35,193 nucleotides of DNA from Selenomonadaceae bacterium. GTDB lineage: Bacteria > Bacillota > Negativicutes > Selenomonadales > Selenomonadaceae. Made by a program: the position numbers and the translations under genes. The notes under the pieces were generated by a model. That model saw only the letters and a program-made list of their open reading frames with translations. It did no database searches and was not told the origin of the DNA. The stretch covers positions 1 to 35,193 of the forward strand of contig JAFUYE010000053.1 in NCBI GenBank assembly GCA_017470715.1, given 5' to 3'. This document shows, piece after piece, positions 8,198 through 28,159 of this stretch; the stretch's first letter is position 1; each line of letters starts with the position of its first letter.

Positions 8198-9157
8198 TCT
8201 GACAAATTTCTAGTCCCAAGTTCCAAGTCCCAAGTCCCTGATTGGGAAGAATCCTTTAAATTTCGACTGACGGAATTTCTGCGCGACGAACAATTTATCT
8301 TTCACGCGCCGATGAGCGAACACACGACATTTAAAATCGGCGGTGCGGCGGATGTTTTAATTTTCCCGTCAAGCGCGGACGACGTGTCGAAAATTTTTAA
8401 GCTCGTCGACGAATTTTGTTTGCCGTGCACGATTTTGGGCAACGGTTCAAATGTTTTGGTGCGCGACAAAGGAATTCGCGGTGCAGTCGTCAAGTTCACG
8501 GAAAAATTTTTCGGCAACATGCGTTGTGACGGTCAAAGAATTTTTGCGTGTGCCGGTGCCAAACTTAAAGATGTTTCGGAGTTCGCGGCTCAAAATTCGT
8601 TGACGGGCATGGAGTTCGCCTGCGGAATCCCCGGCAGTATCGGCGGAGCAATTTTCATGAACGCGGGCGCATATGATGGCGAAATGAAAAATACCGTCGC
8701 GAGCGTCAAAGCGGTCAGTCGCAACGGCGAATTTATCGAATTCAGCGGCGCAAGTCTCGGACTCGGTTATCGTCACAGCAATTTTCAGGAAAACGGTTGT
8801 GCGATTTGCGAAGTCGAAATGATTTTGCAACGCGGCAACGTCGACGAAATCAAAAATAAAATGGCGGACTTCACCGAACGTCGCGAAAGTAAACAGCCGC
8901 TTGACTTGCCCAGTGCGGGTTCGACGTTCAAACGCCCGAAAGGTTATTTCGCGGGTACTTTGATTGACAAAACCGGCTTGAAAGGTTTGCGCGTCGGCGG
9001 AGCAATGGTTTCCGAAAAACACGCGGGCTTTGTCGTGAACACGGGCGGCGCGACAGCCGAAGACGTTTTGAATTTGATTGAGGAAGTCAAACGCAGAGTT
9101 TGCGAAATGCACGGCGTGACGTTGATGCCGGAAGTGCGCATTATCGGCGAAAAATAA
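8195..9157 (+). CDS. murB: UDP-N-acetylenolpyruvoylglucosamine reductase
   Basis: A 320-residue FAD enzyme that reduces UDP-GlcNAc-enolpyruvate to UDP-MurNAc in peptidoglycan synthesis. FAD-binding signatures SEHTTFKIGG, ILGNGSNVLV and GIPGSIGGAIFMNAGAY are present, as are YRHSNF (catalytic region), PSAGSTFKRP and the closing HGVTLMPEVRIIG. It is a type II-like MurB, as expected for Gram-positive relatives. The first 16 residues (MSDKFLVPSSKSQVPD) come from two tandem repeats and are unlike any MurB N-terminus, while conserved sequence starts near residue 18. The ATG at 8195 is the only start with a ribosome site, though that site itself is repeat-derived. Confidence 0.95.
   Translation: MSDKFLVPSSKSQVPDWEESFKFRLTEFLRDEQFIFHAPMSEHTTFKIGGAADVLIFPSSADDVSKIFKLVDEFCLPCTILGNGSNVLVRDKGIRGAVVKFTEKFFGNMRCDGQRIFACAGAKLKDVSEFAAQNSLTGMEFACGIPGSIGGAIFMNAGAYDGEMKNTVASVKAVSRNGEFIEFSGASLGLGYRHSNFQENGCAICEVEMILQRGNVDEIKNKMADFTERRESKQPLDLPSAGSTFKRPKGYFAGTLIDKTGLKGLRVGGAMVSEKHAGFVVNTGGATAEDVLNLIEEVKRRVCEMHGVTLMPEVRIIGEK
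8212..8239 (+). repeat. AGTCCCA heptanucleotide tandem repeat inside murB
   Basis: AGTCCCA, AGTTCCA, AGTCCCA and AGTCCCT follow one another and are translated as part of the unusual MurB N-terminus (VPSSKSQVPD). The unit length equals that of the AATTAGG repeat 15 bp upstream although the sequence differs. Confidence 0.85.
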
Positions 9158-9247
9158 TTTTGCGCTTTGGACGGCGATAACGTTAACCAAATTGGATGCA
9201 ACGTCACGTTGCCCCGAAGTGCGCATTATCGGCGAGGAATAATTTTT
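9131..9247 (+). repeat. Duplicated murB 3' end flanking a palindromic repeat element
   Basis: The 20 bases GAAGTGCGCATTATCGGCGA at 9131-9150, with following stop and T run, recur at 9216-9235. The second copy encodes PEVRIIGEE and a stop, against PEVRIIGEK in the real gene. Between them lies a modular repeat element (about 9170-9213, minus orientation): GGCGATAACGTT, then the perfect inverted repeat GCAACGT-C-ACGTTGC at 9198-9212. The same element with a gene-end copy recurs near 27921-28159. Confidence 0.85.
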
Positions 9248-9301
9248 TGTCGACGCAACAAAAAGTTTCACAAGCAGTAAAGTTTCAAAGGAGTTTCAAA
9301 C

Positions 9302-10318
9302 ATGATTAAAGATGCCATCGTTAAAATCGTGAACAAGGGGGATTTGACTTACGACGAAGCCTTTGCCGTCATGAACGAAATCATGAGCGGCGAAACTTCC
9401 GCGACACAAAATGCGGCGTTCCTGTCCGCGCTGTCGACGAAAAACGCTCGTGCTGAAACGACGGACGAAATTGCGGGTTGCGCGGCGGCAATGCGGTCAC
9501 ACGCCACGGCTGTCGATACCGGCATGGACGTTTTTGAAATCGTCGGCACGGGCGGCGACAATTCCCAAAGCTTTAACATTTCGACGACTTCGGCGATTAT
9601 CGCGGCGGCGGGCGGCATGAAAGTTGCCAAACACGGTAATCGTGCGGCGTCGTCGAAATGCGGAGCGGCGGATTGTCTGGAAGCTCTCGGCGTCAACATT
9701 GACCAATCGCCCGAAAAATGCATTGAACTTTTGCGCGAAGTCGGTATCTGTTTTTTCTTCGCGCAAAAATATCATGCGTCAATGAAATATGTCGGCGCGA
9801 TTCGTCGCGAACTCGGTTTTCGCACGGTCTTTAACATTTTGGGGCCGCTCACCAATCCCGGCAAACCGTCAATGCAAATTCTCGGCGTGTACGACGAATA
9901 TTTAATCAATCCGCTCGCGCAGGTTTTAATCGGGCTCGGCGTCAAGCGCGGCATGGTTGTTTACGGTCAAGACAAACTCGACGAAATTTCATTGAGCGCG
10001 CCAACTTCGATTTGCGAAATTAACGACGGCTGGATTAAAAATTTTGTCATCAAGCCCGAAGACTTCGGATTTTCACGTTGCACGCGGGAAGATTTACGCG
10101 GCGGAGATCCTGCCGAAAACGCGGCGATAACTCGTTCGATTCTGCGCGGCGACAAAGGTCACAAACGCAACGCAGTCCTTTTGAACGCGGGTGCGGCTCT
10201 GTATGTCGGTGGCAAAGCTGAAACTTTTAAATCGGGCGTCGAACTTGCGGCGGAATTAATCGACAGCGGCAAAGCTCTCGACACGCTTGAAAAATATATT
10301 GAGGCGTCGCAGGCATGA
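9302..10318 (+). CDS. trpD: Anthranilate phosphoribosyltransferase
   Basis: A 338-residue enzyme that joins anthranilate to PRPP, the second dedicated step of tryptophan synthesis. The PRPP/Mg motif [17 protein letters not shown] and the anthranilate-site sequence [21 protein letters not shown] are intact, as is the glycine-rich [22 protein letters not shown] at 9302 is preceded by AAAGGAG. It is the first trp gene here; trpE and trpG are not upstream, where murB and repeats are found. No leader peptide, TRAP site or T-box was recognised in the preceding 140 bp. Its stop overlaps the trpC start (ATGA). Confidence 0.96.
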
Positions 10319-11106
10319 ACATTTTGCAGGAAATTGCCGAGTGCGCGAAAATCCGTGTCGCCGGTTACAAAGTTATCGGTGAGCCCGCCGAAGTCAAAAG
10401 TTTGGCGTTGAGTTTGCCGCGAAAAAATAATTTTCCGTTTGAAGTTGCGCTGAAGAAACCGTGGCTGTCGTTTATCTGCGAATGCAAAAAAGCTTCACCG
10501 TCGAAAGGTTTGATTGCCGAAAATTTTCCGCACGTCGAAATTGCCAAAGCTTACGAATCAGCCGGCGCGGACGCAATTTCGATTTTGACGGAGCCGAAAT
10601 ATTTTTTGGGCAGCGACGAATTTTTGTTTGACATTGCCCGCGAAGTGTCAATCCCGTGCCTGCGGAAAGATTTTGTCGTCGATGATTACATGATTTATCA
10701 GGCGAAAATTTTGGGCGCGGACGCCGTGTTGTTAATTTGTGCGATTCTCGACGACGTTCAGTTGAAAAATTTTATCGCGGCGTGTGACGAACTGGGCTTG
10801 AGCGCGTTGGTTGTAGCTCACGACGAAAACGAAATTCGGCGGGCTTTGAACTGCGGAGCGCGTGTTATCGGCGTCAACAATCGCAACTTGAAAAATTTTT
10901 CCGTCGACATGAGCAATGCCGCAAAACTTCGCGAACTGGTTCCGCATGAAAAAATTTTCGTTTCCGAAAGCGGCGTGCAAACTACCGACGACGTGAAAAA
11001 AATCCGTTCAATCGGTGCCGACGCGGTTTTAATCGGCGAAGTTTTGATGCGTGCCGTCGACAAAAAATTAAAGCTTGCCGAATTGCGCGGTGACGGTCAC
11101 TTTTAA
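10315..11106 (+). CDS. trpC: Indole-3-glycerol phosphate synthase
   Basis: A 263-residue TIM-barrel enzyme that closes the indole ring from CdRP. The catalytic region [15 protein letters not shown], the strand ending in [14 protein letters not shown], and the phosphate-binding [11 protein letters not shown] and FVSESGVQT are present. It is a stand-alone trpC, not fused to trpF. Its ATG overlaps the trpD stop by four bases, suggesting coupled translation. The last codons and the TAA stop lie inside a palindrome (CACTTTTAAAAAGTG, 11098-11112) that begins a repeat element, so the natural C-terminus may have been altered by a few residues. Confidence 0.96.
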
Positions 11107-11272
11107 AAAGTGGACAAACAGTTGACGCGCTGTGACGTTGAAATATTTTTGACGTTATCGCCGCGCCGAAACTCATCGAAAGGAATTTTTCATGACACGA
11201 ATTAAATTCTGTGGACTGCGGACGCTCGACGACATTTTTGCGGTCAACGAAATTTTTCCCGATTATGTCGCC
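11098..11272 (+). repeat. First unit of a 175-bp tandem duplication between trpC and trpF
   Basis: This unit begins with the palindrome CACTTTTAAAAAGTG and contains the repeat-element blocks (AACAGTTGACGCG and GACGTTATCGCCGCG) and a copy of the trpF ribosome site plus 26 codons. The second unit is 11273-11447. The two differ at more than a dozen positions, many at third codon positions. Confidence 0.9.
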
Positions 11273-11281
11273 CACTTTTAA
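11192..11281 (+). pseudogene. Truncated 5' copy of trpF
   Basis: The 29-residue frame starts [18 protein letters not shown] and matches the first 26 residues of trpF, then runs into the next repeat palindrome and stops (AHF, TAA). It keeps a ribosome site (AAAGGAATTTTTC), so it may be translated as a leader peptide. It cannot be an active isomerase. Confidence 0.85.
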
Positions 11282-11447
11282 AAAGTGGACAAACAGTTGA
11301 CGCGCCACGACGTTGAAATATTTTTGACGTTATCGCCGCGCCGAAACGCATTGAAAGGAATTTTTCATGACACAGATTAAATTCTGCGGATTGCGGACGC
11401 TCGACGACATTTTTGCCGCGAATGAAATTTTGCCCGATTACGTCGGC
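11273..11447 (+). repeat. Second unit of the 175-bp tandem duplication
   Basis: Offset is exactly 175 bp from the first unit. This unit includes the palindrome CCACTTTTAAAAAGTGG (11272-11288), the same conserved blocks and the real start of trpF. Confidence 0.9.
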
Positions 11448-11954
11448 TTTGTCTTCGCGCCGAAAAGTAAACGTTACGTCACGCCCGAAATTGCCGAAAA
11501 ACTTCGTGACGCTCTGTCGAAAAAAATTTCGGCTGTCGGCGTTTTCGTTAACGAAAATTTTCAAACCGTAGCCGAACTTTTGAACGCGGGCATAATCGAT
11601 ATTGCTCAACTGCACGGCGACGAAAACGACGCTTACATAAAAAATCTGCGCGGGCTCACCGACAAGCCGATAATCAAAGCTTTTCGCGTCGACAAGTTGG
11701 CTGACACGACGGCAGATTTTATTTTGATTGACGCGGGCGCGGGTGACGGAAAAACTTTCGATTGGCAACTGCTGAAAAATTTTCGACGCGAATATTTTTT
11801 GGCGGGCGGACTTACTCCCGACAATGTTTCGGACGCGATTAAACTTTTGCAACCGTTCGCCGTCGACGTAAGCAGCGGCATTGAAACCGACGGACGAAAA
11901 GATTTTCACAAAATGGCAACCTTCGCGGAGGTTGTGCGGAGGAATTTTTTATGA
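11367..11954 (+). CDS. trpF: Phosphoribosylanthranilate isomerase
   Basis: A 195-residue TIM barrel that converts PRA to Cd[12 protein letters not shown] carries the catalytic Cys, and [28 protein letters not shown] and the phosphate-binding [10 protein letters not shown] are in the expected order. ATG at 11367 follows AAAGGAATTTTTC. A truncated copy of its beginning lies just upstream within a tandem duplication. The stop overlaps the trpB start (ATGA). It is slightly short for the family, but no motif is missing. Confidence 0.95.
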
Positions 11955-13141
11955 CGAATCAAAACGGACGCTTCGGCGTCTACGGCGGGCAGTACATTCC
12001 CGAAACGCTCATGAACGCGGTTATCGAACTGGAGACGGCTTACAATCGTTTCAAGGACGACGAAACTTTTAATCGCGAACTCGACGACCTGTTTAAAAAT
12101 TACGCGGGACGCCCGTCACTTTTATATTTTGCCGAACAAATGACGAACGACCTCGGCGGCGCAAAAATTTATCTCAAGCGTGAGGACTTAAATCACACCG
12201 GTTCACACAAAATCAATAACGTGCTCGGTCAAGCGTTGTTGGCAAAAAAAATGGGCAAAACTCGTTTGATTGCCGAAACGGGCGCGGGTCAACACGGTGT
12301 CGCAACCGCAACTGCCGCCGCCTTGCTCAAAATGTCCTGCGTCGTGTTTATGGGCGTCGAAGATACAATCCGTCAAGCACTGAACGTTTACCGCATGAAA
12401 CTTTTGGGCGCGGAAGTTGTCCCCGTCAAAAGCGGCACCGGCACGCTTAAAGACGCAGTCAGCGAAACTTTCCGCGAATGGACGGCACGAATTGCCGACA
12501 CGCATTATTGTTTGGGTTCCGTCATGGGACCGCATCCGTTCCCGACGATTGTTCGCGATTTTCAAGCCGTCATCTCGAAAGAAATTAAAACTCAAATTCT
12601 CGAACGCGAAGGCAAACTTCCCGACGCGGTGATTGCCTGTTGCGGCGGCGGCTCAAATTCAATCGGCACGTTTTACAATTTCATCAACGACAAAAGCGTT
12701 AGACTTATCGGTTGCGAAGCGGCGGGACGCGGTGTCGACACGTTTGAAACTGCAGCGACGATTGCCACGGGACGCACGGGAATTTTCCACGGCATGAAAA
12801 GTTATTTCTGTCAGGACGAATACGGACAAATCGCGCCGGTGTATTCGATTTCGGCGGGGCTCGACTATCCCGGTATCGGTCCCGAACATGCGTATCTGCA
12901 CGACATTGGCAGAGCCGAATACGTTCCGATAACCGACGCGGAGGCTGTCGACGCCTTTGAATATTTGTCACGCACGGAAGGAATTATTCCCGCGATTGAA
13001 TCTGCGCACGCCGTTGCTCACGCAATGAAAATTGCTCCGACAATGTCCCGCGATAAAATTATCGTTGTCACGTTGAGCGGACGCGGCGACAAAGATTGCG
13101 CGAGTGTTGCCCGCTACAGAGGAGAAAATATCGATGAGTAA
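11951..13141 (+). CDS. trpB: Tryptophan synthase beta chain
   Basis: A 396-residue PLP enzyme that condenses indole with serine. The PLP lysine is Lys87 in HTGSHKINN, the canonical position; [12 protein letters not shown] and the phosphate-binding GGGSNSIG loop follow. It is of the TrpB1 type that works with TrpA. ATG at 11951 overlaps trpF's stop and has GCGGAGG upstream. The 3' end overlaps trpA by eight bases. Confidence 0.97.
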
Positions 13142-13913
13142 AATTTTTCAGGCGTTCGCGCACGGCAAAGCGTTTATCCCGTTCATCACTTGCGGCGACC
13201 CGAATTTAAAGACGACGGCTGAAGTTGTTCGGGCGGCAGTTGCAAACGGTGCAGATTTAATCGAACTCGGAATTCCGTTTTCAGATCCGACGGCTGAAGG
13301 TGTCGTGATTCAAGCGGCGAATTTGCGGGCACTTCAAGGCGGCGTCACCACCGATAAAATTTTCGACATGGTTCACGACCTGCGCGGCGACGTGAAAATT
13401 CCGTTCGTGTTTATGACTTATGCCAACGTGATTTTTTCATACGGCGCGGAAAAATTTTTCGGCAAATGTCGTGAGCTTGAAGTTGACGGCGTGATTCTGC
13501 CCGACGTGCCGTTTGAGGAAAAAGATGAGTTTCTGCCGACGTGTAAAAAATTCGGCGTCGATTTAATTTCGATGATTGCCCCGACTTCCGAACAACGAAT
13601 CGCAATGATTGCCCGCGAAGCCGAAGGTTTCGTTTATGTCGTGTCGAGTCTCGGCGTGACGGGCGTGCGCAGTGAAATTAAAACCGATTTGGCGTCGATT
13701 GTCGCGGCGATACGGGCGAACACGAAAATTCCCTGCGCTATTGGTTTCGGCATTTCAACGCCCGCGCAGGCTCAAGCAATGGCAAAAATTTCGGACGGCG
13801 CGATTGTCGGTTCGGCGATAATAAAAATTCTTGCGGAACACGGCACGGCGGCTCCGAAATTTGTCGGCGAATATGTTCGCGAAATGAAAGATGCAATTCG
13901 TTGCGTAAATTAG
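13134..13913 (+). CDS. trpA: Tryptophan synthase alpha chain
   Basis: A 259-residue TIM barrel that releases indole from indoleglycerol phosphate. Catalytic residues are in [15 protein letters not shown] (Glu) and the [13 protein letters not shown] region (Asp). The start is ATG at 13134, with AGAGGAG eight bases upstream; an ATG-less upstream extension to 13104 lacks support. Its stop codon TAG donates a base to the inverted repeat at 13913-13936, which may act in transcription or RNA stability. No T-run terminator follows. It is the last trp gene. Confidence 0.96.
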
Positions 13914-14090
13914 AGGCCGTCACGGATGACGGCCTCAGCCGCGTTATTCGCGTGATGCGAATACTGCGGCCAAAGTTGGTGACTCACACGCCGACTTATG
14001 TGATAACGCACTGTATCGCCCGCCGCGTAGGCGCGAGTTTCTTTGCTACTTTCTTTGCTCGGTCAAAGAAAGTAGATTCAAAAAATTAAT
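13913..14090 (+). repeat. Multi-hairpin intergenic repeat, copy 1
   Basis: Three hairpins are visible. The first (13913-13936) pairs GAGGCCGTC with GACGGCCTC. The second (13938-13970) is GCCGCGTTATTCGC, loop GTGAT, GCGAATACTGCGGC. The third (14046-14075) pairs CTACTTTCTTTG with CAAAGAAAGTAG. Copies 2 and 3 (17830 and 34930) share the opening GAGGCCGTCA, the GTGAT-loop hairpin with changed but complementary arms, and a CTTTCTTT-rich third part. No protein gene is seen inside. Confidence 0.75.
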
Positions 14091-14136
14091 TTGGAACGCG
14101 GAATCATTTAAAATTGCCGTTAAGGAGGTCTGAAGT

Positions 14137-15168: not shown

Positions 15169-15193
15169 ATTTGTTTGACCGTCACGAAAAAGC

Positions 15194-15257
15194 AATTAGG
15201 AATGTGGAATTAGTAATGAGGAATTAAATTCGCCGAAACAATTCCTAATTACTAATA
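15194..15257 (+). repeat. Diverged AATTAGG repeat forming an inverted repeat
   Basis: AATTAGGAATGTGGAATTAG followed by TAATGAGGAATT, then about 14 bp, then AATTCCTAATTACTAAT. ATTAGTAATGAGGAATT pairs with the last stretch with one mismatch, so the repeat makes a hairpin after the binding-protein gene. Confidence 0.75.
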
Positions 15258-15260
15258 AAA

Positions 15261-15292
15261 AAAATCCCCGACCGCAGTCGAGGATTTTTTTT
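15261..15292. terminator. Bidirectional terminator between convergent genes
   Basis: An A run, TCCCCGAC-CGCA-GTCGAGGA with one mismatch, then eight T. It would serve both the binding-protein gene (plus) and the cytidine deaminase gene (minus). Confidence 0.75.
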
Positions 15293-15299
15293 ACGAAAA

Positions 15300-15785: not shown

Positions 15786-15798
15786 GTAATGTATCTCG

Positions 15799-16290: not shown

Positions 16291-16394
16291 CTCATGCCAC
16301 CTCCCGAAAAAATTTCTTGTTCACAGTTTAACACAAATGAATATCGCCTGCAAACCTGCGGAAAAATTTTTCTGCACACGGTTGATTTTTTTGT

Positions 16395-16400
16395 TATAAT
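16395..16400 (+). promoter_or_regulatory. Possible -10 element of lysA
   Basis: A perfect TATAAT lies 20 bp before the lysA ribosome site. No good -35 is seen at 17 bp (CTGCAC), so the promoter may be activator-dependent, or I have the wrong partner. Confidence 0.4.
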
Positions 16401-16432
16401 CAGCGGCGATAAATTTTATGGAGGCACATACC

Positions 16433-17829: not shown

Positions 17830-18040
17830 GAGGCCGTCATGGGCAAATGCGCGCTGGCAAGCATTTGCGACGCCCGCAGTATTTCACGTGATGTGAAATA
17901 TGCGGGCACGAGCGGCACCCGTAGCCGACTACTCCGAACAGCGAACGACCAACGCCCTCCGCGCAGGCGAAGGCGAACTGGTGAGCGTTCGCGCTTTCTT
18001 TGCTACTTTCTTTCACTGCTGAAAGAAAGTAGATTCGACA
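17830..18040 (+). repeat. Multi-hairpin intergenic repeat, copy 2
   Basis: GAGGCCGTCATGGGCAAATG starts the element. GCAAATGC/GCATTTGC (around 17843-17868) pair. The main hairpin (17872-17907) pairs GCCCGCAGTATTTCAC with GTGAAATATGCGGGC around GTGAT. The third hairpin (about 18002-18031) is CTACTTTCTTTC with GAAAGAAAGTAG. Nearly the whole 499-bp gap between lysA and argC is made of this element, flanking terminators and the argC leader; no gene is seen. Confidence 0.75.
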
Positions 18041-18136: not shown

Positions 18137-18160
18137 GTCGCTTTAAAAGTGACGGAACAA
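18137..18160 (+). repeat. Palindrome element in the argC leader
   Basis: GTCGCTTTAAAAGTGAC then GGAACA matches, in order, the palindrome and the first conserved block of the element at the end of lysC (GTCGCTTTAAAAGCGAC, GGAACA). The later blocks are absent, so this is a partial copy in the 5' leader of argC. Confidence 0.55.
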
Positions 18161-18236
18161 TTTGGAACAACGCAGTCGGTAAATTTATCACTGCGACAAA
18201 ATATTTCACAACAAACACGTTCAGGAGGTTGACACA

Positions 18237-19274
18237 TTGGCAAAAGTCAGCGTTATCGGTGCAACGGGCTACGCGGGCGCGGAATTGCTCTCGATTTTGA
18301 TTCGTCACCCGCAGGCGGAAATTGCGCACATAACTTCGGAAAGTCACACCGGCAAAAAAATTTCGGAACTGTATCCGCATCTGCGCGGCATTTGCGAATT
18401 GACGCTTGAAAGTTTGGCGGACATTGAAACAATCGGCGCGGACAGCGATTTTATTTTTATCGCGTTGCCGCACGGTCACGCAATGGACGTTGGTTTGAAA
18501 CTCGAAAAACTTCCCGTCAGAATTATCGACTTGGGCGCGGATTATCGTTTCGCCGACACGTCGATTTACGAAAGCTGGTACAACGTTCCGCACAAACACC
18601 CGAACGCGCCGCGAGTTTACGGCTTGGCGGAAATTTATCGCGACTACATTCGCACGGCAAAAATCATCGGCAACGCGGGCTGTTTCACCACGGCATCAAT
18701 TCTTGCGTTGGCTCCGTTGGTCAAACATCATCTTGTTGACGCGAATTCGATTATCGTTGACGCGGCGTCGGGTGTTTCGGGTGCAGGTCGCGGACTCAAA
18801 CTCGGCAACCATTTCCCCGAACTCTACGACAACTTCAAGGCTTACAACGTTGCCCGTCACCGTCACACGCCCGAAATCGAACAAGCACTTGAAGATTTGG
18901 GCGGTGAGCGCACGATTATAAATTTCACGCCGCATTTGGTTCCAATGTCACGCGGGATTTTGGCAACGTGTTATGCGACGCTTAAAGAAAATGTCGGCGA
19001 CGAAATGATTGACGCGGCATTTCAAAAAATGTACGGCGACGAAAAATTTATTCGACTTTTGGGACGCGGCGGCTATCCCGAAACAAAATTCGTTCGCGGC
19101 TCAAATTTCTGCGACATCGGCTGGCACATTGACGAGCGTACGCGCCGTGTTATAATTCTTTCGGCGATTGACAATCTGGTTAAAGGTGCGGCAGGTCAAG
19201 CCGTTCAGAATTTCAATATCGCGGCGGGCTTCGACGAATCAACTGCGATTGACGTTGCGCCGATGTATCCGTGA
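18237..19274 (+). CDS. argC: N-acetyl-gamma-glutamyl-phosphate reductase
   Basis: A 345-residue NADPH enzyme of the third arginine-synthesis step. The Rossmann start VSVIGATGYAGAELLSILIRH, the catalytic Cys in IGNAGCFTT, and VVDAASGVSGAGRG-type sequence (here IVDAASGVSGAGRGLKLG) are all present. The start is TTG at 18237, with CAGGAGG about nine bases upstream. argJ follows after a 152-bp gap filled by a 16-bp tandem array. Confidence 0.95.
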   Translation: MAKVSVIGATGYAGAELLSILIRHPQAEIAHITSESHTGKKISELYPHLRGICELTLESLADIETIGADSDFIFIALPHGHAMDVGLKLEKLPVRIIDLGADYRFADTSIYESWYNVPHKHPNAPRVYGLAEIYRDYIRTAKIIGNAGCFTTASILALAPLVKHHLVDANSIIVDAASGVSGAGRGLKLGNHFPELYDNFKAYNVARHRHTPEIEQALEDLGGERTIINFTPHLVPMSRGILATCYATLKENVGDEMIDAAFQKMYGDEKFIRLLGRGGYPETKFVRGSNFCDIGWHIDERTRRVIILSAIDNLVKGAAGQAVQNFNIAAGFDESTAIDVAPMYP

Positions 19275-19391
19275 TTAGATCGATAGATCGTTAGATCGAT
19301 AGATCGTTAGATCGATAGATCGTTAGATCGATAGATCGTTAGATCGATAGATCGTTAGATCGATAGATCGTTAGATTGTTAGATCGATAGT
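19275..19391 (+). repeat. 16-bp GATC-rich tandem array
   Basis: TTAGATCGATAGATCG is repeated six times without a change (19275-19370), followed by a degenerate copy to 19391. The unit is two similar octamers (TTAGATCG and ATAGATCG) and holds two GATC sites and one ATCGAT. It starts right after the argC stop and ends about 36 bp before argJ. Confidence 0.9.
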
Positions 19392-20638: not shown

Positions 20639-20656
20639 TTTCTCGGAGGAAACTTT

Positions 20657-20980: not shown

Positions 20981-21099
20981 CGAACGCGATTTTGCTTGAC
21001 GAGCGCGCAAGCGTGACGCTTGACCCAACGGGAGCAACCCGCGACTTTTTGACGTTGATTCGTTGCAAAAATTTTTCGGGCGGTGAATATCATGATTAA
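20977..21099 (+). pseudogene. Residual 5' end of uxaA with inserted repeat element
   Basis: TTG at 20977 overlaps the carrier gene's TGA and has GGGAGG upstream. Its frame starts MTNAILLDERASV, like the uxaA start MINAILLDEHDNV, and then crosses a repeat element (inverted repeat CAAGCGT-G-ACGCTTG at 21008-21022, then CCGCGAC and GACGTT) to stop at 21099. The 20-bp AACGCGATTTTGCTTGACGA occurs at 20983 and again at 21098. I read this as the former start of uxaA, displaced by the insertion. Confidence 0.65.
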
Positions 21100-22585
21100 C
21101 GCGATTTTGCTTGACGAACATGACAACGTTGCCACTTGCACGGCTCCCGCAGTCAAAAATGACACGATTAAAATTCTCGGCGGCGGCGAAATTGTTTGCG
21201 TCGAAGACATTCCGATTTGGCATAAAGTTGCGTTGAAACCGATTCATGCCGGCGAAAAAGTTTTCAAGTACGGCGAAATTATCGGTGAGGCTTCGGCGGA
21301 CATTTCGGCGGGCGGGCACGTGTCTCACGAAAATATTTTCAGCGTGCCGCGTGATTATGCGAACGAATATTTGTCGGGCGACGTTGATAAAAAAATTCCT
21401 GCGCAGAAAAATTCTTCGACCGGCTTAAAATTTTGGGGATATAAACGCAGTGACGGACGTGCCGGAATTCGCAATCACGTTTTGATTTTGCCGACGTGCG
21501 CTTGCGGTTCGGAGACCTGCCGAATTGTCGCAAGTCAAGTTCGCGGCGCGGTCAACATAATTTTTAACACGGGCTGTTCGGACGTGGCGGCGAATACCGC
21601 AATGTCGCAAAAAATTTTGACGGGCTTCGCGTGCAATCCGAACGTTTTCGGCGTCGTGATTATCGGGCTCGGTTGCGAAACCGTTCCGCATGACAAGTTG
21701 CGCGAAAAAATTCAATCGATGACGAACAAGCCCGTTGTGTCGTTCGGAATTCAGGACGAAGGCGGCACCCTCAAGACGATTGAAAAGGCAGTTCGTGCGG
21801 CGCGTGAACTTGCGGCGGAGGCGGGACTTCAACAAAAAGAACTTTGCGACGCGTCAGAAATTTTGCTGGGTATCGAATGCGGCGGCTCGGATGCAACGTC
21901 GGGCATTGCGTCAAATCCCGCTGTCGGAAATTTGAGCGATAAACTCGTTGACTGCGGCGCGTCGACAATGATGAGCGAATCAATCGAGTGGATTGGCGGC
22001 GAACATGTTCTTGCTAAACGGGCGGCGAATTCCGACTTGCACAATCAAATTATAAAAATCTGCGCGGATTACGAATCACATTTAAAATCGGCGGGGCAAG
22101 ATTGTCGTGCGGGTCAACCGACGCCCGGTAACAAGTTCGGCGGATTGTCGACGATTGACGAAAAAAGTTTGGGCTGTATTCGCAAAGGCGGCACGCGACC
22201 GATTGTCGAAGTTTTGGAGCAGGCACAACGTCCCACACAACGCGGAGCTGTCGTCATGGACACGGCGGGATATGATATTTCGTCCGTCACGTCGATGGTT
22301 GCGGCGGGTTGCAACGCGATTATTTTCACGACGGGACGCGGCACACCGACGGGCAACGCGATTGTCCCCGTGTTGAAAGTCACTGCCAACGCACAAACTT
22401 TTTCACGCATGGAAGACAATCTCGATGTGAATTTGAGCGGAATTATCGACGGCACGTTGACGATTGACGACGCGGGCAGTTTGTTGCTGGAAAAAATTTC
22501 TGACGTGCTCAACGGGCGACTGACCAAGGCGGAAGCTTACGGCTTTTCGGACATTGCGGTTGATCACGTCTGCAGATTCGTTTGA
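21092..22585 (+). CDS. Altronate dehydratase family protein
   Basis: A 497-residue UxaA/galactarate-dehydratase-type protein. An N-terminal SAF-like domain (about 1-75, DIPIWHKVALKPIHAGEKVFKYG) precedes the catalytic domain, with the hallmark GYKRSDGRAGIRNHVLILPT, Cys-rich ACGSETC, IGLGCET, ECGGSDATSGI and FTTGRGTPTGNAI. Family members dehydrate altronate, galactarate or split sulfolactate using a metal. No uronate genes adjoin; instead a carrier protein and an SDR do, so the in vivo substrate is uncertain. ATG at 21092 is chosen, with a weak ribosome site (GGGCGGTG); GTG at 21083 is an alternative. An older start copy lies at 20977. Confidence 0.85.
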   Translation: MINAILLDEHDNVATCTAPAVKNDTIKILGGGEIVCVEDIPIWHKVALKPIHAGEKVFKYGEIIGEASADISAGGHVSHENIFSVPRDYANEYLSGDVDKKIPAQKNSSTGLKFWGYKRSDGRAGIRNHVLILPTCACGSETCRIVASQVRGAVNIIFNTGCSDVAANTAMSQKILTGFACNPNVFGVVIIGLGCETVPHDKLREKIQSMTNKPVVSFGIQDEGGTLKTIEKAVRAARELAAEAGLQQKELCDASEILLGIECGGSDATSGIASNPAVGNLSDKLVDCGASTMMSESIEWIGGEHVLAKRAANSDLHNQIIKICADYESHLKSAGQDCRAGQPTPGNKFGGLSTIDEKSLGCIRKGGTRPIVEVLEQAQRPTQRGAVVMDTAGYDISSVTSMVAAGCNAIIFTTGRGTPTGNAIVPVLKVTANAQTFSRMEDNLDVNLSGIIDGTLTIDDAGSLLLEKISDVLNGRLTKAEAYGFSDIAVDHVCRFV

Positions 22586-22587
22586 CA

Positions 22588-22661
22588 TTAAAGCTTTGAG
22601 CTTAGAGCTTTAAGCTTTAAGGAATGTCCCCTTAAAGCTCACAGCTTAAAGCTTAAAGCTA
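22588..22661 (+). repeat. AGCTTTA heptamer arrays in inverted orientation
   Basis: AGCTTTG, AGCTTAG, AGCTTTA, AGCTTTA (about 22592-22620) is followed after a short spacer (AATGTCCCC) by the reverse form (TTAAAGCTC, ACAGCTT, AAAGCTT, AAAGCT). The two arms can make a long hairpin between uxaA and the SDR gene. Confidence 0.85.
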
Positions 22662-22682
22662 ATTTACTGGAGAAAATTTTTT

Positions 22683-23462
22683 ATGAACGTGACCTTTGAT
22701 TTCGGCGGAAAAAATTTTGTGGTAGTCGGTGCGTCAAGCGGTATCGGTCGGCAAGTTGCGCTGGAATTGTCACAGAGTGGCGCGAACGTCTTGGCTGTCG
22801 GCAGAAATTTGGAGCGACTCGACGCCTTACGAAAAAGTTCGCCAATCAGTTTGATTAAGCAATCGTCGAGAATTTTTGTCGAACAGTTGGACGTTACTAC
22901 GGCGACGGCTGACGAATGGAATTCGGTTTTGGAAAATTTCACGCGTTCCGTCGGCAAAATCAACGGCGGAGTTTACACGGCGGGCATTTGGGGTTTGACA
23001 CCGTTGAACGCTTTCGACACGGAACTTGCGCGGAAAATTTTCGAGACAAGTTTTTGGGGCGCGGTTAATTTCGTGCAGACAACTTCGCGCAGAAAATTTG
23101 CAAACGAAAGTTCGTCGTTCGTTGTGATGAGTTCGGTTGCGGCGGATTTCGCGGGCAAAAGTTTGTTCGCGTATTCGGCGGCAAAAGCGGCAATTCAAGC
23201 GGCTGTAAAATCTTTCGCGGCGGAACTGGTTCGCGGCAAGCACCGAATCAATTCAATCGCGCCGGCATTCGTTCAAACCGAAATGATGCAAAACGAAATG
23301 TACGTCGAGAGCGAAGAAATACTTTCGCGACATTTGCTCGGAATAAGTTCGCCGTTCGACGTGGCGGGCATGATTTTATTTTTGCTGAGCGAACGCGCCG
23401 CACGAATCACAGGACAAAATTTTTTCGTGGACGGCGGCTATGTCGTCGGCTCGTTTGCGTAA
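22683..23462 (+). CDS. SDR family NAD(P)-dependent oxidoreductase
   Basis: A 259-residue classical short-chain dehydrogenase. The cofactor motif VVGASSGIGRQ lies near the N-terminus, VYTAGIWG replaces the usual NNAG, and the catalytic SSVAADF and YSAAKAA supply Ser, Tyr and Lys. The closing GQNFFVDGGYVVG is typical. FabG-like reductases share this layout, and a carrier protein two genes upstream would suit acyl substrates, but the substrate is not established. ATG at 22683 follows TGGAGAAAATTTTTT. Confidence 0.88.
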   Translation: MNVTFDFGGKNFVVVGASSGIGRQVALELSQSGANVLAVGRNLERLDALRKSSPISLIKQSSRIFVEQLDVTTATADEWNSVLENFTRSVGKINGGVYTAGIWGLTPLNAFDTELARKIFETSFWGAVNFVQTTSRRKFANESSSFVVMSSVAADFAGKSLFAYSAAKAAIQAAVKSFAAELVRGKHRINSIAPAFVQTEMMQNEMYVESEEILSRHLLGISSPFDVAGMILFLLSERAARITGQNFFVDGGYVVGSFA

Positions 23463-23490
23463 TAAAAAATTATCGTTTTGCAGAAAAAAA

Positions 23491-23528
23491 AGCCCTCGCG
23501 TCGGAGTGACGCAGGGGCTGATTTTTTT
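23491..23528 (+). terminator. Terminator after the SDR gene
   Basis: AGCCCTCGCGTC and GACGCAGGGGCT pair with one mismatch, loop GGAGT, then seven T. Confidence 0.75.
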
Positions 23529-23580
23529 CGGGACGGGTTTTCTCGTCGCGGACTTGTGCGGCGGCAAACAAAATTTCTGC

Positions 23581-23609
23581 GTCGGCTCAAATTCGAGTCG
23601 GCGTTTTTT
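23581..23609 (+). terminator. Second terminator-like hairpin
   Basis: GTCGGCTC and GAGTCGGC pair over a 6-base loop and are followed by six T. Together with the preceding hairpin it separates the SDR cluster from the HD gene. Confidence 0.6.
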
Positions 23610-23659
23610 GTTGCGTGCGATAACTGTAATCGGGAGTTATTAATTGTTGACACGAAATC

Positions 23660-23683
23660 TTCCTAATTCCTAATTCCTAATTG
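23660..23683 (+). repeat. AATTAGG repeat on the minus strand
   Basis: CTTCCTAATTCCTAATTCCTAATT is the reverse of the AATTAGG array. The preceding AATTGTTGACACGAAAT closely matches the sequence after the array at 2137 (AATTGTTGACGCGAAAT), so the two loci share more than the heptamer. Confidence 0.8.
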
Positions 23684-23691
23684 CTTTTCTG

Positions 23692-23720
23692 TTGCGCGTG
23701 GGATTTTTCGGTTGTATAAT
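23692..23720 (+). promoter_or_regulatory. Promoter of the HD-domain gene
   Basis: TTGCGC (23692-23697), 17 bp, a perfect TATAAT (23715-23720), followed by GGAGGAG and ATG. Confidence 0.65.
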
Positions 23721-23755
23721 TCGGCTAATTTATTTCTAACGTTGGAGGAGATTTA

Positions 23756-24550
23756 ATGCGGGAATTGCTCACCCGAATGCATACGTGGATGACGCGTTAC
23801 ATGAAAAGTTTTTATTCCGACGACGAAGAAGTTCAGCGCGGAATTTTAATTAAGGAAACTCACACGGGCTGCGTTACGGCGAATTGCGTTGAGCTTGCGA
23901 AATTTTTGCAACTGTCGACGCACGACACACAGCTTGCCGAAATTATCGGGCTGTTTCACGACGCGGGACGTTTTCGCCAATACAGCATTTACAAAACTTT
24001 CAACGACGCCGATTCCGAAGATCACGCGGAACTTTCGCTCAAAGTCATTGACGACTTGGAATTTTTTAACGAACTTGGCGCGGAAGATTTGGACGTTGTG
24101 AAATTCGCGATTCAAAATCACAACAAAAAAACCGTTGCGCCTTGCAATGACGAACGAAAAATTTTGTTCGCCAAAATCATTCGCGACGCCGATAAGTTGG
24201 ATATTTACCGCGTGCTTGAACCTTTCCTTGCGCAAAAAGACGTTGACAAAATGCCGAATTTCATCAAGGCGAAAAGTAGATTGAGCGCGGACATCAGCCC
24301 CGATTTCGTCGAAAATTTTGTGGCGGGCGTGCAGGCTGATTACACCAAAATTCGTACCAACGGCGACAGAAAAATTGTTCGGCTCATGTGGCTTTATGAT
24401 ATAAATTTTTCGTGGACAATGCGCAAAATCGTCGAACGCGGCTACATTGAAAAAATCGTCGACAATTTGCCCCGCGACGAAAAAGTTGCCGAGGGCGTCA
24501 AACGTCTGCGCCGTCACGTTGAAACGAAAATTACCGAGGTGAAAAAATGA
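23756..24550 (+). CDS. HD-domain phosphohydrolase
   Basis: A 264-residue protein with an HD metal-binding domain: His36 region, the signature FHDAGR (His68, Asp69), DHAELS and IIRDADKLDIYR. HD proteins hydrolyse phosphate esters or nucleotides with two metals; the substrate is not predictable. The C-terminal half is helical (MWLYDINFSWTMR). ATG at 23756 follows GGAGGAG. Its stop overlaps the next gene's start (ATGA), so the two are translationally coupled. Confidence 0.85.
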   Translation: MRELLTRMHTWMTRYMKSFYSDDEEVQRGILIKETHTGCVTANCVELAKFLQLSTHDTQLAEIIGLFHDAGRFRQYSIYKTFNDADSEDHAELSLKVIDDLEFFNELGAEDLDVVKFAIQNHNKKTVAPCNDERKILFAKIIRDADKLDIYRVLEPFLAQKDVDKMPNFIKAKSRLSADISPDFVENFVAGVQADYTKIRTNGDRKIVRLMWLYDINFSWTMRKIVERGYIEKIVDNLPRDEKVAEGVKRLRRHVETKITEVKK

Positions 24551-25305
24551 ATAACGAACAGTACAAAAATTTAATGTGGCATTTGCTATATACGGAGAGT
24601 CTGCTCGAAAACATTTCCGATGCAACCGCTTCAGGGGGGGATTGTGAATGTCCCGTTTGCAAAACGAAAATTCGCGTTTTTCTTCCGTTCGGCGAAACTC
24701 CCCGTCCGAATGCACAATGCCCGAATTGCAAATCGCTTGAACGTCATCGGGCGTTGTGGCTTTTGTTACAACAACTGAATTGGTACCGCAAAGGAATGCA
24801 CGTCCTGCATTTTGCGCCGGAGTTGATTTTTTATCGGCTGTTCACTTCGTTTAAAGACATTGATTATTGGTCGGTTGACTTAGACCCGAAAGGCTACGGC
24901 GGTATGGTCAGAAAACAAGTCGACATAACGAACATCACTTTCGACGATAACAGCTTCGATTTAATCATGTGCACGCACGTTTTGGAACACATCCCCGACG
25001 ACAAAAAGGCAATGAGCGAACTTTACCGCGTGCTTAAGCCGAAAACGGGAATTGCTTTTTTGAACGTGCCGGTTTATGACATGCCGCAGACGTTTGAAAA
25101 TCCGGAAATAAATACGCCCGAACTTCGCTCAAAGTATTACGGGCAATTCGACCATGTGCGAGCTTACGGGCTTGATTATCCGCAACGGTTGAGCGAGGCG
25201 GGGTTCATCGTTCATTTAATTACAATGCAAGGTTTTGACGAAAAAACTTTGAAACGTTACGGCTTAAATAAAAACGAAAAAATCTTTTTATGCAGAAAGG
25301 ATTGA
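24547..25305 (+). CDS. Class I SAM-dependent methyltransferase with N-terminal zinc-finger-like region
   Basis: A 252-residue protein. A CPVC and CPNC pair (about residues 36-62) may bind zinc, followed by a type 11 methyltransferase core: VLHFAPE at the SAM-binding strand, [22 protein letters not shown] and YRVLKPKTG. Proteins with this layout are often found in surface-polysaccharide regions, though nothing here identifies the acceptor. It starts within the HD gene's stop codon. glnS starts just 4 bp after its stop. Confidence 0.82.
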
Positions 25306-25309
25306 CTCC

Positions 25310-26962
25310 ATGACAAATTTTGTTCAGCAGGAAATTGAAAACGACTTGAATGCAGGCAAATATTCCGACGGAATTCACACGCGTTTTCCGCCGGAACCGA
25401 ACGGTTATTTGCATATCGGGCACGCGAAAAGTGTTTGCTTAAACTTCGGGCTTGCGATTCACAACAACGGGCTTTGCAATCTGCGCTTCGACGACACCAA
25501 TCCGACGAAAGAGGACGTTGAATTTGTCGACTCGATTCAGGAAGATATTAAATGGCTCGGCTTCGATTGGGGCGACAGAAAATTTTTCGCGTCCGATTAC
25601 TTCGACAAACTTTACGATTATGCCGTCGAACTTATCAAACGCGGGCTTGCTTACGTCGACGACTTGAGCGCGGAAGAAATTCGGGCTTATCGCGGCACGT
25701 TGACTGAACCGGGTAAAGAAAGTCCACACCGCAACCGCTCAATCGAAGAAAATTTGGATTTGTTCACGCGCATGAAGAACGGCGAGTTCCCCGACGGCTC
25801 GAAAGTTTTGCGTGCAAAAATTGACATGGCGTCACCGAATATCAACATGCGCGACCCCGTCATTTACCGAATCACGCGAACGACGCATCATCACACCGGC
25901 GACGCTTGGTTGATTTATCCCATGTACGATTTCGCGCACCCGCTTGAGGACGCGATAGAAAATATCACGCACTCGGTTTGCACGTTGGAATTTGAAGATC
26001 ATCGCCCGTTTTATGATTGGTTGCTTGACGCGTTGGGATTCGACCCGAACTCGCGCCCGCGTCAAATTGAATTTGCTCGGCTTGACGTGACGAACACAAT
26101 CACAAGCAAGCGGAAACTTCGTCAGCTCGTCGAAGAACATCACGTGCGCGGTTGGGACGATCCGCGTATGCCGACTTTGTGCGGGCTTCGTCGACGGGGA
26201 TTCACTCCTGCGGCAATTCGCGATTTCTGCGAACGAATCGGCGTCGCGAAGTCAAACAGCCTCGTCGATATTGCGATGCTTGAACACTGCGTCCGCGAAG
26301 ACTTGAACGCCAATGCCGCCAGAGTTATGGCGGTGCTTGAACCGATTAAAGTTGTCTTGACGAACGTCGACGAAAATTCCGTTGAATATTTGACGGCGGA
26401 AAATCATCCGACACGCGGCGGCAGTCGATTCGTGCCTTTTACGCGGGAAATTTTTATCGAACGCGAAGACTTCATGGAAGATGCTCCGAAAAAATTTTTC
26501 CGTTTGAAACCCGACGGCGAAGTTCGTTTAAAGCACGCGTACATAATCAAATGCAACGAAGTCATCAAAAATTCCGACGGCGAAATTGTCGAGCTTCACT
26601 GCACGATTGACCCGACTTCCAAATCGGGCGGCGCGACTGCCAATCGCAAAATCAAAGGCACGATTCATTGGGTGAGCGCGAAATTTGCACTGCCCGCCGA
26701 AGTTCGCCTGTACGATTATCTTTTGACGACCGACGAAAACGGCAACTTGCCCGAAGATTTTATCGGCGCGATTAATCCCGATTCGCTGATTGTCAAAAAC
26801 GCGTTGATTGAACCGTCCGTTCGCTGGACAAATTCGGGCACGCACTATCAATTTTTGCGGCTGGGATATTTCGTCGTCGACCCCGATACCACGCCCGAAA
26901 AGTTGGTTTTCAATCGCGTTGTCGGCTTGAAAGATTCTTGGGCGAAAGTCAAAAACAAATAA
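25310..26962 (+). CDS. glnS: Glutaminyl-tRNA synthetase
   Basis: A 550-residue class I synthetase. [21 protein letters not shown] is the GlnRS form of the HIGH motif; DDTNP, the [23 protein letters not shown] tRNA-acceptor sequence and TSKRKL (KMSKS equivalent) follow, and the C-terminal beta-barrel domain (INPDSLIV region) is complete. PEPNG and the last motifs separate it from GluRS. Many Firmicutes lack GlnRS and use GatCAB amidation, so its presence is informative for taxonomy. ATG at 25310 has AAAGGA 10 bases upstream, a modest site. Confidence 0.95.
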
Positions 26963-26974
26963 GGAGCAAACATT

Positions 26975-27646
26975 ATGAAAAAAAGTAATCGCGAGGTTTT
27001 TTCCGATATATACGCCAACGGCAGATGGTACAGACCGCCGAATCCCGAAGAAAGATTCGGTTCCGGCAGAGGCTCTCACGACGAAGAAGTGATCTTGCCT
27101 TATATCAATACGTTGATTCCACTGCTCACGAACAACAATATCCGCAATATCGTCGATTTGGGTTGCGGAGATTTTTGGATTATGCGTCACGTGCTCGGTG
27201 CTCTTTCGGATGCCGGTTACAATTTTTTCTACACGGGCATTGATGTTGTCGAGGACTTGATAAATTACAATGCCGCTCGTTTTCAACATCCGAACATAAA
27301 ATTTATTTGCATGGACGCCGCCGAAGACGAATCTTTGCCTGACGGAGAGTTGTTGATTATAAGGCAAGTCCTTCAGCATTTGAGCAACGACGACATAAAA
27401 AAGATTTTAAGCAAGACGACGAATTTCAAGTTCGTACTCATAACGGAGAGCATTTACGACGAGATCGACGCCGTGCCGAATATCGATAAGCAAGCCGACA
27501 ATCAAACCAGAGTTCATTTGAAATCGGGCGTTTATCTGGAACATGCGCCGTTCAATTACAAAAACATCGTGCACTTGTTGAAAGTCAACGGCGGCGTCTT
27601 GGAAAATGTTCAAAACACGATTCGGAGCAGTCTTATAATTAACTGA
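26975..27646 (+). CDS. Class I SAM-dependent methyltransferase
   Basis: A 223-residue protein with the SAM-binding motif NIVDLGCGDFWIMRHV, acidic strand-two residue in TGIDVVEDL, and IIRQVLQHLSNDD at motif post I. The end is variable and gives no substrate. ATG at 26975 is preceded by AAGGAGC. It lies 12 bp after glnS and 13 bp before the next gene. Codon choice (for instance more ATA and AGA) looks slightly different from its neighbours, which might mean later acquisition; I did not measure this. Confidence 0.82.
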   Translation: MKKSNREVFSDIYANGRWYRPPNPEERFGSGRGSHDEEVILPYINTLIPLLTNNNIRNIVDLGCGDFWIMRHVLGALSDAGYNFFYTGIDVVEDLINYNAARFQHPNIKFICMDAAEDESLPDGELLIIRQVLQHLSNDDIKKILSKTTNFKFVLITESIYDEIDAVPNIDKQADNQTRVHLKSGVYLEHAPFNYKNIVHLLKVNGGVLENVQNTIRSSLIIN

Positions 27647-27659
27647 GGAGGCGATAACG

Positions 27660-27971
27660 TTGCCGAAAATTCCACGCGGCTTGACCGATAAAGACATGGT
27701 GAAAAATTACGTCGAAGAAGAAACTATCGAACAGCAACTTTTGACCGCCGCGAAAAAAGCCGAAAAACTTCGTTTGGTCGCCGAAGCGGAAGCACCGCCC
27801 GCGCCGTTGGCAAAAGCCGGATTCACGCCCGAACTTACAGACAAACTCGGCCGCGAATTGCTTGCGCTTAAAATTGAGCTGTCGAATGCCGGCGTCAAAA
27901 GTTACAACTTCAAAATCAAACGTGACGGCGATAAGATAACTTTGACCGTCGTCGATAAAAAACTTTATTGA
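27660..27971 (+). CDS. Small protein of unknown function
   Basis: A 103-residue, charged protein, not recognised. An N-terminal helix (KDMVKNYVEEETIEQQLLTA) is followed by an Ala/Pro linker (EAEAPPAPLAKAG) and a small end domain (LALKIELSNAGVKSYNFKIK, then RDGDKITLTVVDKKLY). TTG at 27660 is the start, with GAGGAGG nine bases upstream. The last 16 codons recur 93 bp downstream with identical amino acids but different codons. Confidence 0.7.
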   Translation: MPKIPRGLTDKDMVKNYVEEETIEQQLLTAAKKAEKLRLVAEAEAPPAPLAKAGFTPELTDKLGRELLALKIELSNAGVKSYNFKIKRDGDKITLTVVDKKLY

Positions 27972-28078
27972 CGCTCGGAAATTTTCCAACTGTTCCCCCG
28001 CTTCTAAAGCGGGCGTGACGGAGACAAAATTACGTTGACCGTCGTCGATAAAAAACTTTATTGACGCTCGGAAATTTT
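27921..28078 (+). repeat. Duplicated gene end with synonymous differences
   Basis: 27921-27985 and 28014-28078 are 93 bp apart. Both encode RDGDKITLTVVDKKLY and a TGA stop, but the first five varying codons differ only at synonymous sites (GGC/GGA, GAT/GAC, AAG/AAA, ATA/ATT, ACT/ACG). Between them lies CAACTGTTCC and the inverted repeat CCCGCTTCTAAAGCGGG (27997-28013). Confidence 0.9.
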
Positions 28079-28080
28079 TT

Positions 28081-28159
28081 GATAACGTTTGAGCGCGGCG
28101 ATAACGTCGGATTAATCGGAACGTCGCGGCGCGTCAACCGGATGCAACGTCACGTTGCC
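28081..28159 (-). repeat. Complete modular palindrome element
   Basis: Read on the minus strand: inverted repeat GCAACGTGACGTTGC (28158-28144), then ATCCGGTTGACGCGCCGCGACGTT, an AT-rich spacer and GACGTTATCGCCGCGC. The order and blocks match those at trpC/trpF and at the end of lysC. Confidence 0.75.

Follow-up and report, generated by a model that had tools for sequence, protein, structure and literature searches.

What places a second, diverged copy of a gene end next to a short hairpin? The question arises in a 35,193-nucleotide stretch of a Selenomonadaceae genome (contig JAFUYE010000053.1 of assembly GCA_017470715.1), referred to in its entirety as the window, where eight copies of one palindromic repeat are found and a duplicated gene end accompanies the repeat at four sites. 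We consider it likely that these repeats form a family of non-autonomous mobile elements with a hairpin at one end, which are copied into new sites by a hairpin-recognizing activity and duplicate their target as they do so. The window is contig 18 of a 2.9-Mb genome assembled in 155 contigs and 95% complete; hereafter G numbers designate genomes, G000 being the window's own, and L numbers designate loci.

A modular element with three hairpin classes

The element consists of a hairpin, which belongs to one of three classes with covarying arms, followed by AACAG(T/C)TGACGCG or AACAATTTGG, a variable part and a final CGCCGCG. It usually measures about 70 bp, and the sizes within the family range from about 28 to 100 bp. 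An alignment of 80 full-length class A copies (71 columns) reads GNNAC-TTTTAAAAA-GTNN, then CAAACAG(T/C)TGACGCG, about 20 variable positions and ...CGCCGCG. The class B hairpin is N3GC-TTTAAAA-GCN3 followed by GGAACA, and the class C hairpin is GCAACGTGACGTTGC followed by ATCC; both precede the same or a related core. Short forms stop at AACAATTTGG or AACAGTTGG, and in some relatives the elements bear an extra tail of the type GTACGCAACGCTGCGCATTGCTAGC.

Since the seeds of the 80-copy alignment were picked by their AAACA and GACGCG motifs, near-invariance at both is partly built in, and the motifs were therefore recounted on hairpins selected by the hairpin alone. AACA or ATCC then lies within 12 nt past the hairpin in 101 of 103 class A, 45 of 53 class B and 21 of 31 class C copies. 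CGCG occurs within 26 nt in 97, 30 and 16 copies, respectively, compared with 24, 17 and 7 for the same span 200 nt further on, and GCCGCG occurs 30 to 75 nt past the hairpin in 74, 24 and 9 copies, compared with 7, 1 and 3 at 130 to 175 nt, the class C counts taking in a few chance palindromes throughout.

Pairing of the arms was evaluated on copies anchored only on the loop and the right-hand motif, without demanding that the outer bases pair. Of 111 class A copies, 106 have arm dinucleotides that complement each other, in seven different combinations, where shuffling gives a mean of 32 and at most 45. Among 43 class B copies, the arm trinucleotides do so in 39, with a shuffled mean of 15 and a maximum of 26. 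The structure of the hairpin is thus conserved more than its sequence. Folding of the 80-copy alignment with alifold recovered the terminal hairpin and no conserved second stem, the other strand giving three weak extra pairs. The alignment ends in GTTACTTTT... on one side and ...CGCCGCG on the other, hence no terminal inverted repeats; likewise, by reading, class B and C hairpins are not inverted copies of the opposite end.

Gene-end copies are target duplications

Up to 200 bp before each hairpin were aligned with up to 350 bp after it, over 222 loci (1.71 Mb with overlaps), and a match was counted when it scored at least 18 and ended within 3 bases of the hairpin. The second copy was sought in these local flanks only, so that an element bringing a gene end from elsewhere would escape. 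Most of this DNA was fetched for its element matches, which biases copy density; fetching was independent of duplicates. Among 196 catalogued hairpins, 187 had enough flank, and the adjoining flank recurs in 73 of these anchors, against 18 of 2000 random anchors (Fisher p 5e-67). All three classes contribute, with 41 of 103 class A, 21 of 53 class B and 11 of 31 class C anchors. Tandem copies were counted one by one. In 43 of the 73 pairs there is no second hairpin in the vicinity; the other 30 do have one, for example in a tandem array, which limits their independence. A profile-based catalogue compiled earlier (114 of 122 copies tested) presents the same pattern among the copies listed.

The boundary of the duplicate is sharp on the hairpin side. 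Of the 75 matches lying within 30 bases, 64 directly adjoin the hairpin with a gap of 0, as do 36 of the 43 pairs without neighboring hairpins; in these counts a boundary inside the hairpin would also score as 0. In the same 43 pairs the duplicate measures 21 to 127 bp, with no fixed length; aligned lengths over all pairs extend from 21 to 156 bp, the longest including a neighboring element copy. Ten pairs show 95 to 100% identity. In five of these ten young pairs the gap is also 0 at CGCCGCG, and this end is thus often precise. Because the flank recurs past the element, ends at the hairpin start and is held once at the empty sites described below, the gene-end copies are target duplications.

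The same gene end was also hit at different hairpin-side endpoints in two genomes (L018 and L189, L033 and L209, and the window's trpF and L106), which suggests hot spots or repeated insertion.

Empty sites in relatives

At the trpC-trpF junction, the two genes are directly joined in 11 of the 13 same-genus relatives listed, with the start codon within an ATGA string and with neither element nor duplicate. The remaining two are L108, which has an unrelated spacer, and L106 of G014, where an independent class C insertion carries its own 103-bp duplicate of the trpF start. This second insertion has its own empty site in G036, which holds the stretch once, the two alignments overlapping by 109 bases. 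Comparable single-copy overlaps are 48 bases for L055 against L134 and 37 bases for L076 against L195. Where no duplicate is detectable, the alignments overlap at the break by 14 (L045), 6 (L048), 8 (L053), 3 (L065) and 1 (L219) bases, and L188 has a break with 6 extra bases; L086, whose break is not clean, was left out of this set. These comparisons show element copies to be present or absent at the same site among relatives, and the element is therefore mobile. In them the target duplication ranges from about 0 to more than 100 bp, and over all the data it reaches about 130 bp. An insertion within a gene end therefore produces an intact gene with a fragment of it alongside.

The same data bear on the view that the repeat is a stationary regulatory sequence, such as a terminator or an RNA processing site, with unrelated tandem duplications beside it. 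The location of the window copies at gene junctions and the conserved hairpin structure would fit such a role, but the presence/absence polymorphism with empty sites contradicts it, the duplicates end where the hairpin starts, and Rfam yielded 0 matches at gathering score within the window. We regard this view as extremely unlikely.

Distribution in the genome and the genus

Beyond the window, a one-copy DNA search of its own genome returned 55 matches at E<=10, 45 of them at E<=0.001, bearing in mind that a single element can yield two matches. A two-block pattern has 9 exact matches there against 0 for the reversed pattern. The exact class A pattern occurs in 31 stretches of named genomes titled Selenomonadales or Selenomonadaceae, some of them from ruminants. 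At the level of the family, the core pattern was found in 16 of 189 genomes, all 16 among the 66 genomes of the window's genus, and in none of the 123 that represent 29 further genera; the reversed pattern, used as a control, never occurred. In G004, one of these 16, the match appears to be due to chance. G020, G022 and G030, which lack the core pattern, also have short matches to the class C element of the murB site, and 16 of 189 is thus a lower bound. The window's genome is the richest of the 189 in the core pattern. The exact core pattern was found in 0 viral contigs, and spread by viruses was rejected. No such repeat is described in Selenomonadales in the titles and abstract beginnings listed by literature searches of the open-licence records of PubMed Central (PMC).

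Most of what the original prediction had read from the window holds. It proposed one modular repeat family, which the eight copies in the window and the further genome matches bear out, whose arms vary yet stay complementary, and it located gene-end copies beside the element at the murB end, the trpF start, the uxaA start and the end of the gene at 27660, all of which are present. The mobility that it implied is seen as presence or absence at the same sites. Of the checks that it put forward, the search of the genome and its relatives yielded more copies, among them copies with the shared blocks and with duplicates, and the alignment of empty sites placed the duplicated stretch once, at that very position, in relatives.

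Divergence between the two copies

The original prediction held, in addition, that insertion-site duplication alone could not explain the differences at third codon positions, and invoked a diverged gene end acquired by recombination with a related strain, or an element that travels with a gene end. This part of its interpretation is not supported. Coding filters were passed by 24 of the 73 pairs, giving 383 codons and 114 base differences, which are distributed over the three codon positions as 25, 23 and 66 and correspond to 55 silent and 38 amino-acid-changing codons. The number of amino-acid changes expected is 81 if all changes are neutral and 40.6 if half of them fall in a constrained gene. 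The observed 38 matches plain duplication followed by drift, with one copy free and the gene constrained. Moreover, in 11 pairs compared with a relative, the copies differ by 2 to 10 bases per pair, and the divergence between them is no greater than that of the gene copy from the first relative listed, except at L005 (10 vs 7).

Polarity of the changes is less accommodating. With outgroups, 15 changes were assigned to the fragment and 28 to the gene copy, 6 being undecided (10 pairs, sign test p 0.066), which is mildly opposite to simple decay of the fragment. These 10 are the usable ones of 22 pairs, 11 having been dropped for a same-genome outgroup and L147 because its outgroup matched both copies; several of the outgroup loci carry elements of their own. 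The silent share is also uneven between pairs (p 0.03). Given this gene-side excess and uneven silent share, the gene copy may have exchanged sequence with other strains' alleles at some time later than the insertion; the copy itself would not have originated that way.

The same excess and unevenness speak for recombination with a related strain, or for an element that travels with a gene end, as the source of the diverged end, as does ATTTGCCCC, common to the gene copy of G014 trpF and the ortholog at L113 (G024). Nevertheless, relatives with empty sites hold the duplicated stretch once, at that place, ten pairs are nearly or fully identical, and the amino-acid changes are as numerous as plain duplication and drift would predict; we therefore deem such an origin unlikely.

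At L106 of G014, by reading, four amino-acid differences from G036 within the duplicated stretch lie in the gene copy and not in the fragment, which is unusual for the start of a constrained gene.

Searches for a mobilizing enzyme

A short element with long direct repeats could be a miniature inverted-repeat transposable element (MITE), mobilized by one of the DDE transposases that generate long, variable direct repeats. The insertion sequences IS1549 and IS1634 set the precedent, with repeats of 8 to 514 bp whose mechanism was left unexplained (PMC2266710), and DDE_Tnp_1 matches occur in 6 of 9 carriers of the element against 12 of 28 other genomes (37 searched, G004 not counted as a carrier). 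However, DDE_Tnp_1 has no match in the window's own genome nor in G014 or G021, all of them element carriers. The IS1634 family model NF033559 likewise has none in the own genome and 0 of 37 genus genomes over its cut-off, with weak partial matches in 4. The absence of terminal inverted repeats also argues against a MITE. In a search for a longer, gene-bearing version, 86 copies gave 3 matches, against 6 for 400 random anchors, about 12% of the own genome having been taken as long stretches; the 3 matches were attributed to tandem or neighboring elements, and an autonomous long version was provisionally rejected for the DNA covered. An IS1634-type MITE, whose transposase was not found in the own genome, was rejected, and we judge movement by a DDE transposase very unlikely. 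Another genome of the genus, G010, has 21 DDE_Tnp_1 matches, the window's genome having none.

The other transposase families sought fared no better. Y1 (PF01797) has no match in G000 and matches in 5 of the 37 genomes, 4 over the cut-off. Among the 7 Y1 loci, a class B hairpin motif stands close to a single one, L158 of G014, whose frame has 53 aa. With no Y1 match in the own genome, a RAYT/REPIN system was rejected. Y2 (PF04986) is absent from G000 and over the cut-off in 0 of 37 genomes, a search of unproven sensitivity as the control also gave 0 of 14 genomes. Neither rve nor Transposase_mut has a match in the own genome.

Reverse transcription was considered as well, in the form of target-primed copying of a small RNA that ends in the hairpin, which should give a precise 3' end and a ragged or truncated 5' end. 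The hairpin end is indeed precise and the other end variable, with short forms and fillers, and RVT_1 matches are found in the carriers G000, G017 and G036. The remaining six of the nine carriers (G005, G010, G014, G016, G021 and G024, these 60 to 89% complete) have no RVT_1 match. The two reverse transcriptases of G000 sit, by reading, among apparent phage genes, and none of the 20 reverse transcriptase loci fetched has the element motif. The end at CGCCGCG, precise in half of the young pairs, fits poorly with ragged truncation. Spread driven by a reverse transcriptase was provisionally rejected on the missing matches and motifs, and target-primed copying appears quite unlikely.

Junctions and a model for insertion

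The target itself has some features in common between sites. The hairpin end sits exactly at the break, often just past a GC-rich tetranucleotide: the last four bases before the junction are GC-rich (0.66 to 0.80 GC in 64 pairs whose left copy has no other hairpin), CG directly precedes the hairpin in 48 of 166 copies where 18 are expected, and a purine precedes it in 49 of 53 class B and 29 of 31 class C copies. Moreover, elements meet one another. Among the 40 neighboring hairpin pairs listed within 330 bp, which include tandem arrays with the same hairpin, nine are stacked: a hairpin and AACA...CGCG are followed by a second hairpin at once or within three bases. In two cases the hairpin was swapped on a kept local core, class B then A at G000:C28 and class C then A in L046, the latter with 31 core bases in common by reading. 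The hairpin is therefore exchangeable while the core stays. At L134/G000:C28 (~5537-5720), adjoining class B and class A elements have the same core and 20-nt tail and different hairpins.

Insertion would then be a copying-in. A hairpin-recognizing nuclease or recombinase, acting in trans, would open the target, either by two independent, widely spaced nicks or by one nick at which it primes synthesis. The element would be copied in starting at the base of the hairpin, and repair synthesis would double the stretch between the nicks. Template switching between elements within the shared AACAGTTGACGCG core could account for hairpin swaps and stacked hairpins. The gene fragments would afterward age in place, possibly with some allele exchange in the gene copy. 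A narrower reading, less likely than not, is that the element needs no transposase of a known family: hairpins of interchangeable sequence would spread at breaks by copying that starts precisely at the hairpin base and doubles as much as about 130 bp of target. In that case its insertions would give rise to spare gene ends, to new ribosome-binding regions and to tandem arrays.

The main rival is template switching by microhomology with no dedicated enzyme. In that scheme the polymerase or the nascent strand stalls at the hairpin and moves over, by way of a GC-rich microhomology, to another copy of the element; having copied this, it resumes as far as about 130 bases upstream and thereby duplicates the target. 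It would suit the failure to find any of the six transposase families in the own genome, the swapped and stacked hairpins, whose joints fall on CGCG or no more than three bases from it, the GC-rich last target bases with their excess of CG, and the unfixed length of the duplicate. Conversely, the exact start at the hairpin in most matches and the motifs that recur past it have the appearance of protein recognition, and confinement of the core pattern to one genus suggests a specific factor. We hold template switching to be doubtful, though far from negligible.

Several observations besides the polarity weigh against an element copied in by a hairpin-recognizing activity. No trans-acting enzyme has been identified; six transposase families were sought, none was found in the own genome, and other families were not sought. 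The non-hairpin end is uncertain, as CGCCGCG, TTGG or longer tails may form it. At threshold, 114 of 187 anchors have no detectable duplicate, and the relatives of L093 and L061 carry 20 and 36 bases of their own at the break, with no overlap. Three 100%-identical pairs (L003, L015 and L070) sit in tandem arrays. Fillers of 8 to 51 bases between the non-hairpin end and the duplicate (16 pairs) are only marginally target-like, 15 of 500 shuffles reaching the observed total, and on this marginal support the idea that filler is decayed target was rejected. Of 24 coding pairs, 22 have their intact gene at the CGCCGCG side, a bias that symmetric duplication does not predict unless target preference or hairpin-anchored detection causes it. 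Finally, the named records with the exact class A pattern are all metagenome-assembled genomes.

Relation to known systems

REP/REPIN sequences with their RAYT Y1 transposases are many short intergenic hairpins with a conserved motif beside the hairpin; they differ from the present family in the long duplicates seen here and in the lack of a Y1_Tnp match in the own genome. Mitochondrial double-hairpin or repetitive hairpin elements and GC clusters are mobile hairpins whose arms vary yet stay complementary. They sit in organelles, unlike the elements studied here, and are not known to make long duplicates. Target duplications of unfixed length exceeding 100 bp are unusual. A MITE would differ by its terminal inverted repeats, absent here, and by the fixed length of its target duplication, which here is 21 to 127 bp in the 43 isolated pairs and about 0 in others.

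By published description, YPAL elements appear to be closest in kind, and IS1549 and IS1634 closest for the duplications. YPAL, or RU-2, of Yersinia is palindromic, 168 bp long, without terminal TA and with internal inverted repeats, and makes variable target duplications of 3 to 26 bp at sites known both empty and filled (PMC2229807). It resembles the present family in its small size, lack of terminal repeats, variable target duplication and empty sites. The present element is shorter, reaches duplicates of 127 bp and has other hosts; a hairpin at the exact junction and exchange of hairpin classes are not mentioned for YPAL in the consulted part of that description. IS1549 and IS1634 share the long, variable direct repeats, but they are autonomous insertion sequences of 1.5 to 2 kb, for which the 2008 paper offered no mechanistic model (PMC2266710), whereas the element here is about 70 bp and the transposase family of IS1634 was not found in its genome.

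Copies of the family are numerous, its three hairpin classes are interchangeable, the junctions on the hairpin side are precise and empty sites occur naturally. With these, and with six transposase families not found in the own genome, the origin of long variable duplications becomes testable. The leftover gene-end fragments can, moreover, be set against the gene itself. Since the long duplication restores the gene, it also explains why insertions inside gene ends are tolerated in a dense genome.

Element copies and other repeats in the window

Coordinates of the window copies (Table 1) were obtained from profile searches and from reading of the sequence. At the trp locus, trpC now terminates within the first class A element, and both class A elements belong to a 175-bp tandem unit. 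The uxaA duplicate is the weakest of the four, as it lies 5 nt off the hairpin, outside the 3-nt rule.

Table 1. Element copies and duplicated gene ends, in window coordinates
Feature	Position	Strand	Evidence and remarks
murB 3' end, copy of the intact gene	9128..9161	+	sequence comparison
Class C element	9172..9212	-	hairpin GCAACGTGACGTTGC at 9198-9212, ATCCAATTTGG, ...CGTTATCGCCG; profile E 0.099 and hairpin match
murB end duplicate, 34 nt	9213..9246	+	adjoins hairpin of the 9172-9212 element; locus L101-3988
Class A element, first copy, at trpC end	11096..11165	+	profile E 7.6e-20
trpF start fragment	11192..11270	+	adjoins hairpin of second class A copy; 10/78 differences from gene copy
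Class A element, second copy	11271..11340	+	profile E 2e-19
Intact trpF start (open reading frame 11367-11954), second copy of duplicated stretch	11367..11445	+	
Short class B element	18137..18165	+	hairpin GTCGCTTTAAAAGTGAC and GGAACAATTTGG; no duplicate found
uxaA start fragment	20984..21002	+	precedes the hairpin at 21008; 19 bases from 20984 identical to those from 21099
Class C variant element	21008..21070	+	hairpin CAAGCGTGACGCTTG and ACCC; right end approximate
Intact uxaA-like gene start, same stretch	21099..21117	+	19 identical bases
End of the 27660-27971 gene, intact copy	27921..27985	+	sequence comparison
Short class B element	27986..28013	-	hairpin CCCGCTTTAGAAGCGGG and GGAACAGTTGG; locus L033-1625
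Duplicate of the 27660-27971 gene end	28014..28078	+	adjoins hairpin; 5/65 aligned bases differ
Class C element	28094..28158	-	TTGACGCG core, CGCCGCG end; E 4.8e-8; no duplicate found
Class B element	33106..33172	-	profile E 1.9e-8; no duplicate found

Other repeats occur in the window. A second family, with palindromic parts, is represented at 17830-17932 and 34929-35031 by 103-nt copies of 85% identity (GAGGCCGTCATGGGCAAATGCGCGCTGGCAAGCATTTGCG...). Between two genes, 19274-19390 is a tandem array of the alternating 8-mers TAGATCGA and TAGATCGT. Finally, repeats of the heptamer AATTAGG are scattered on both strands, at 2086-2155, 8157-8198, 15185-15226 and 23660-23688.

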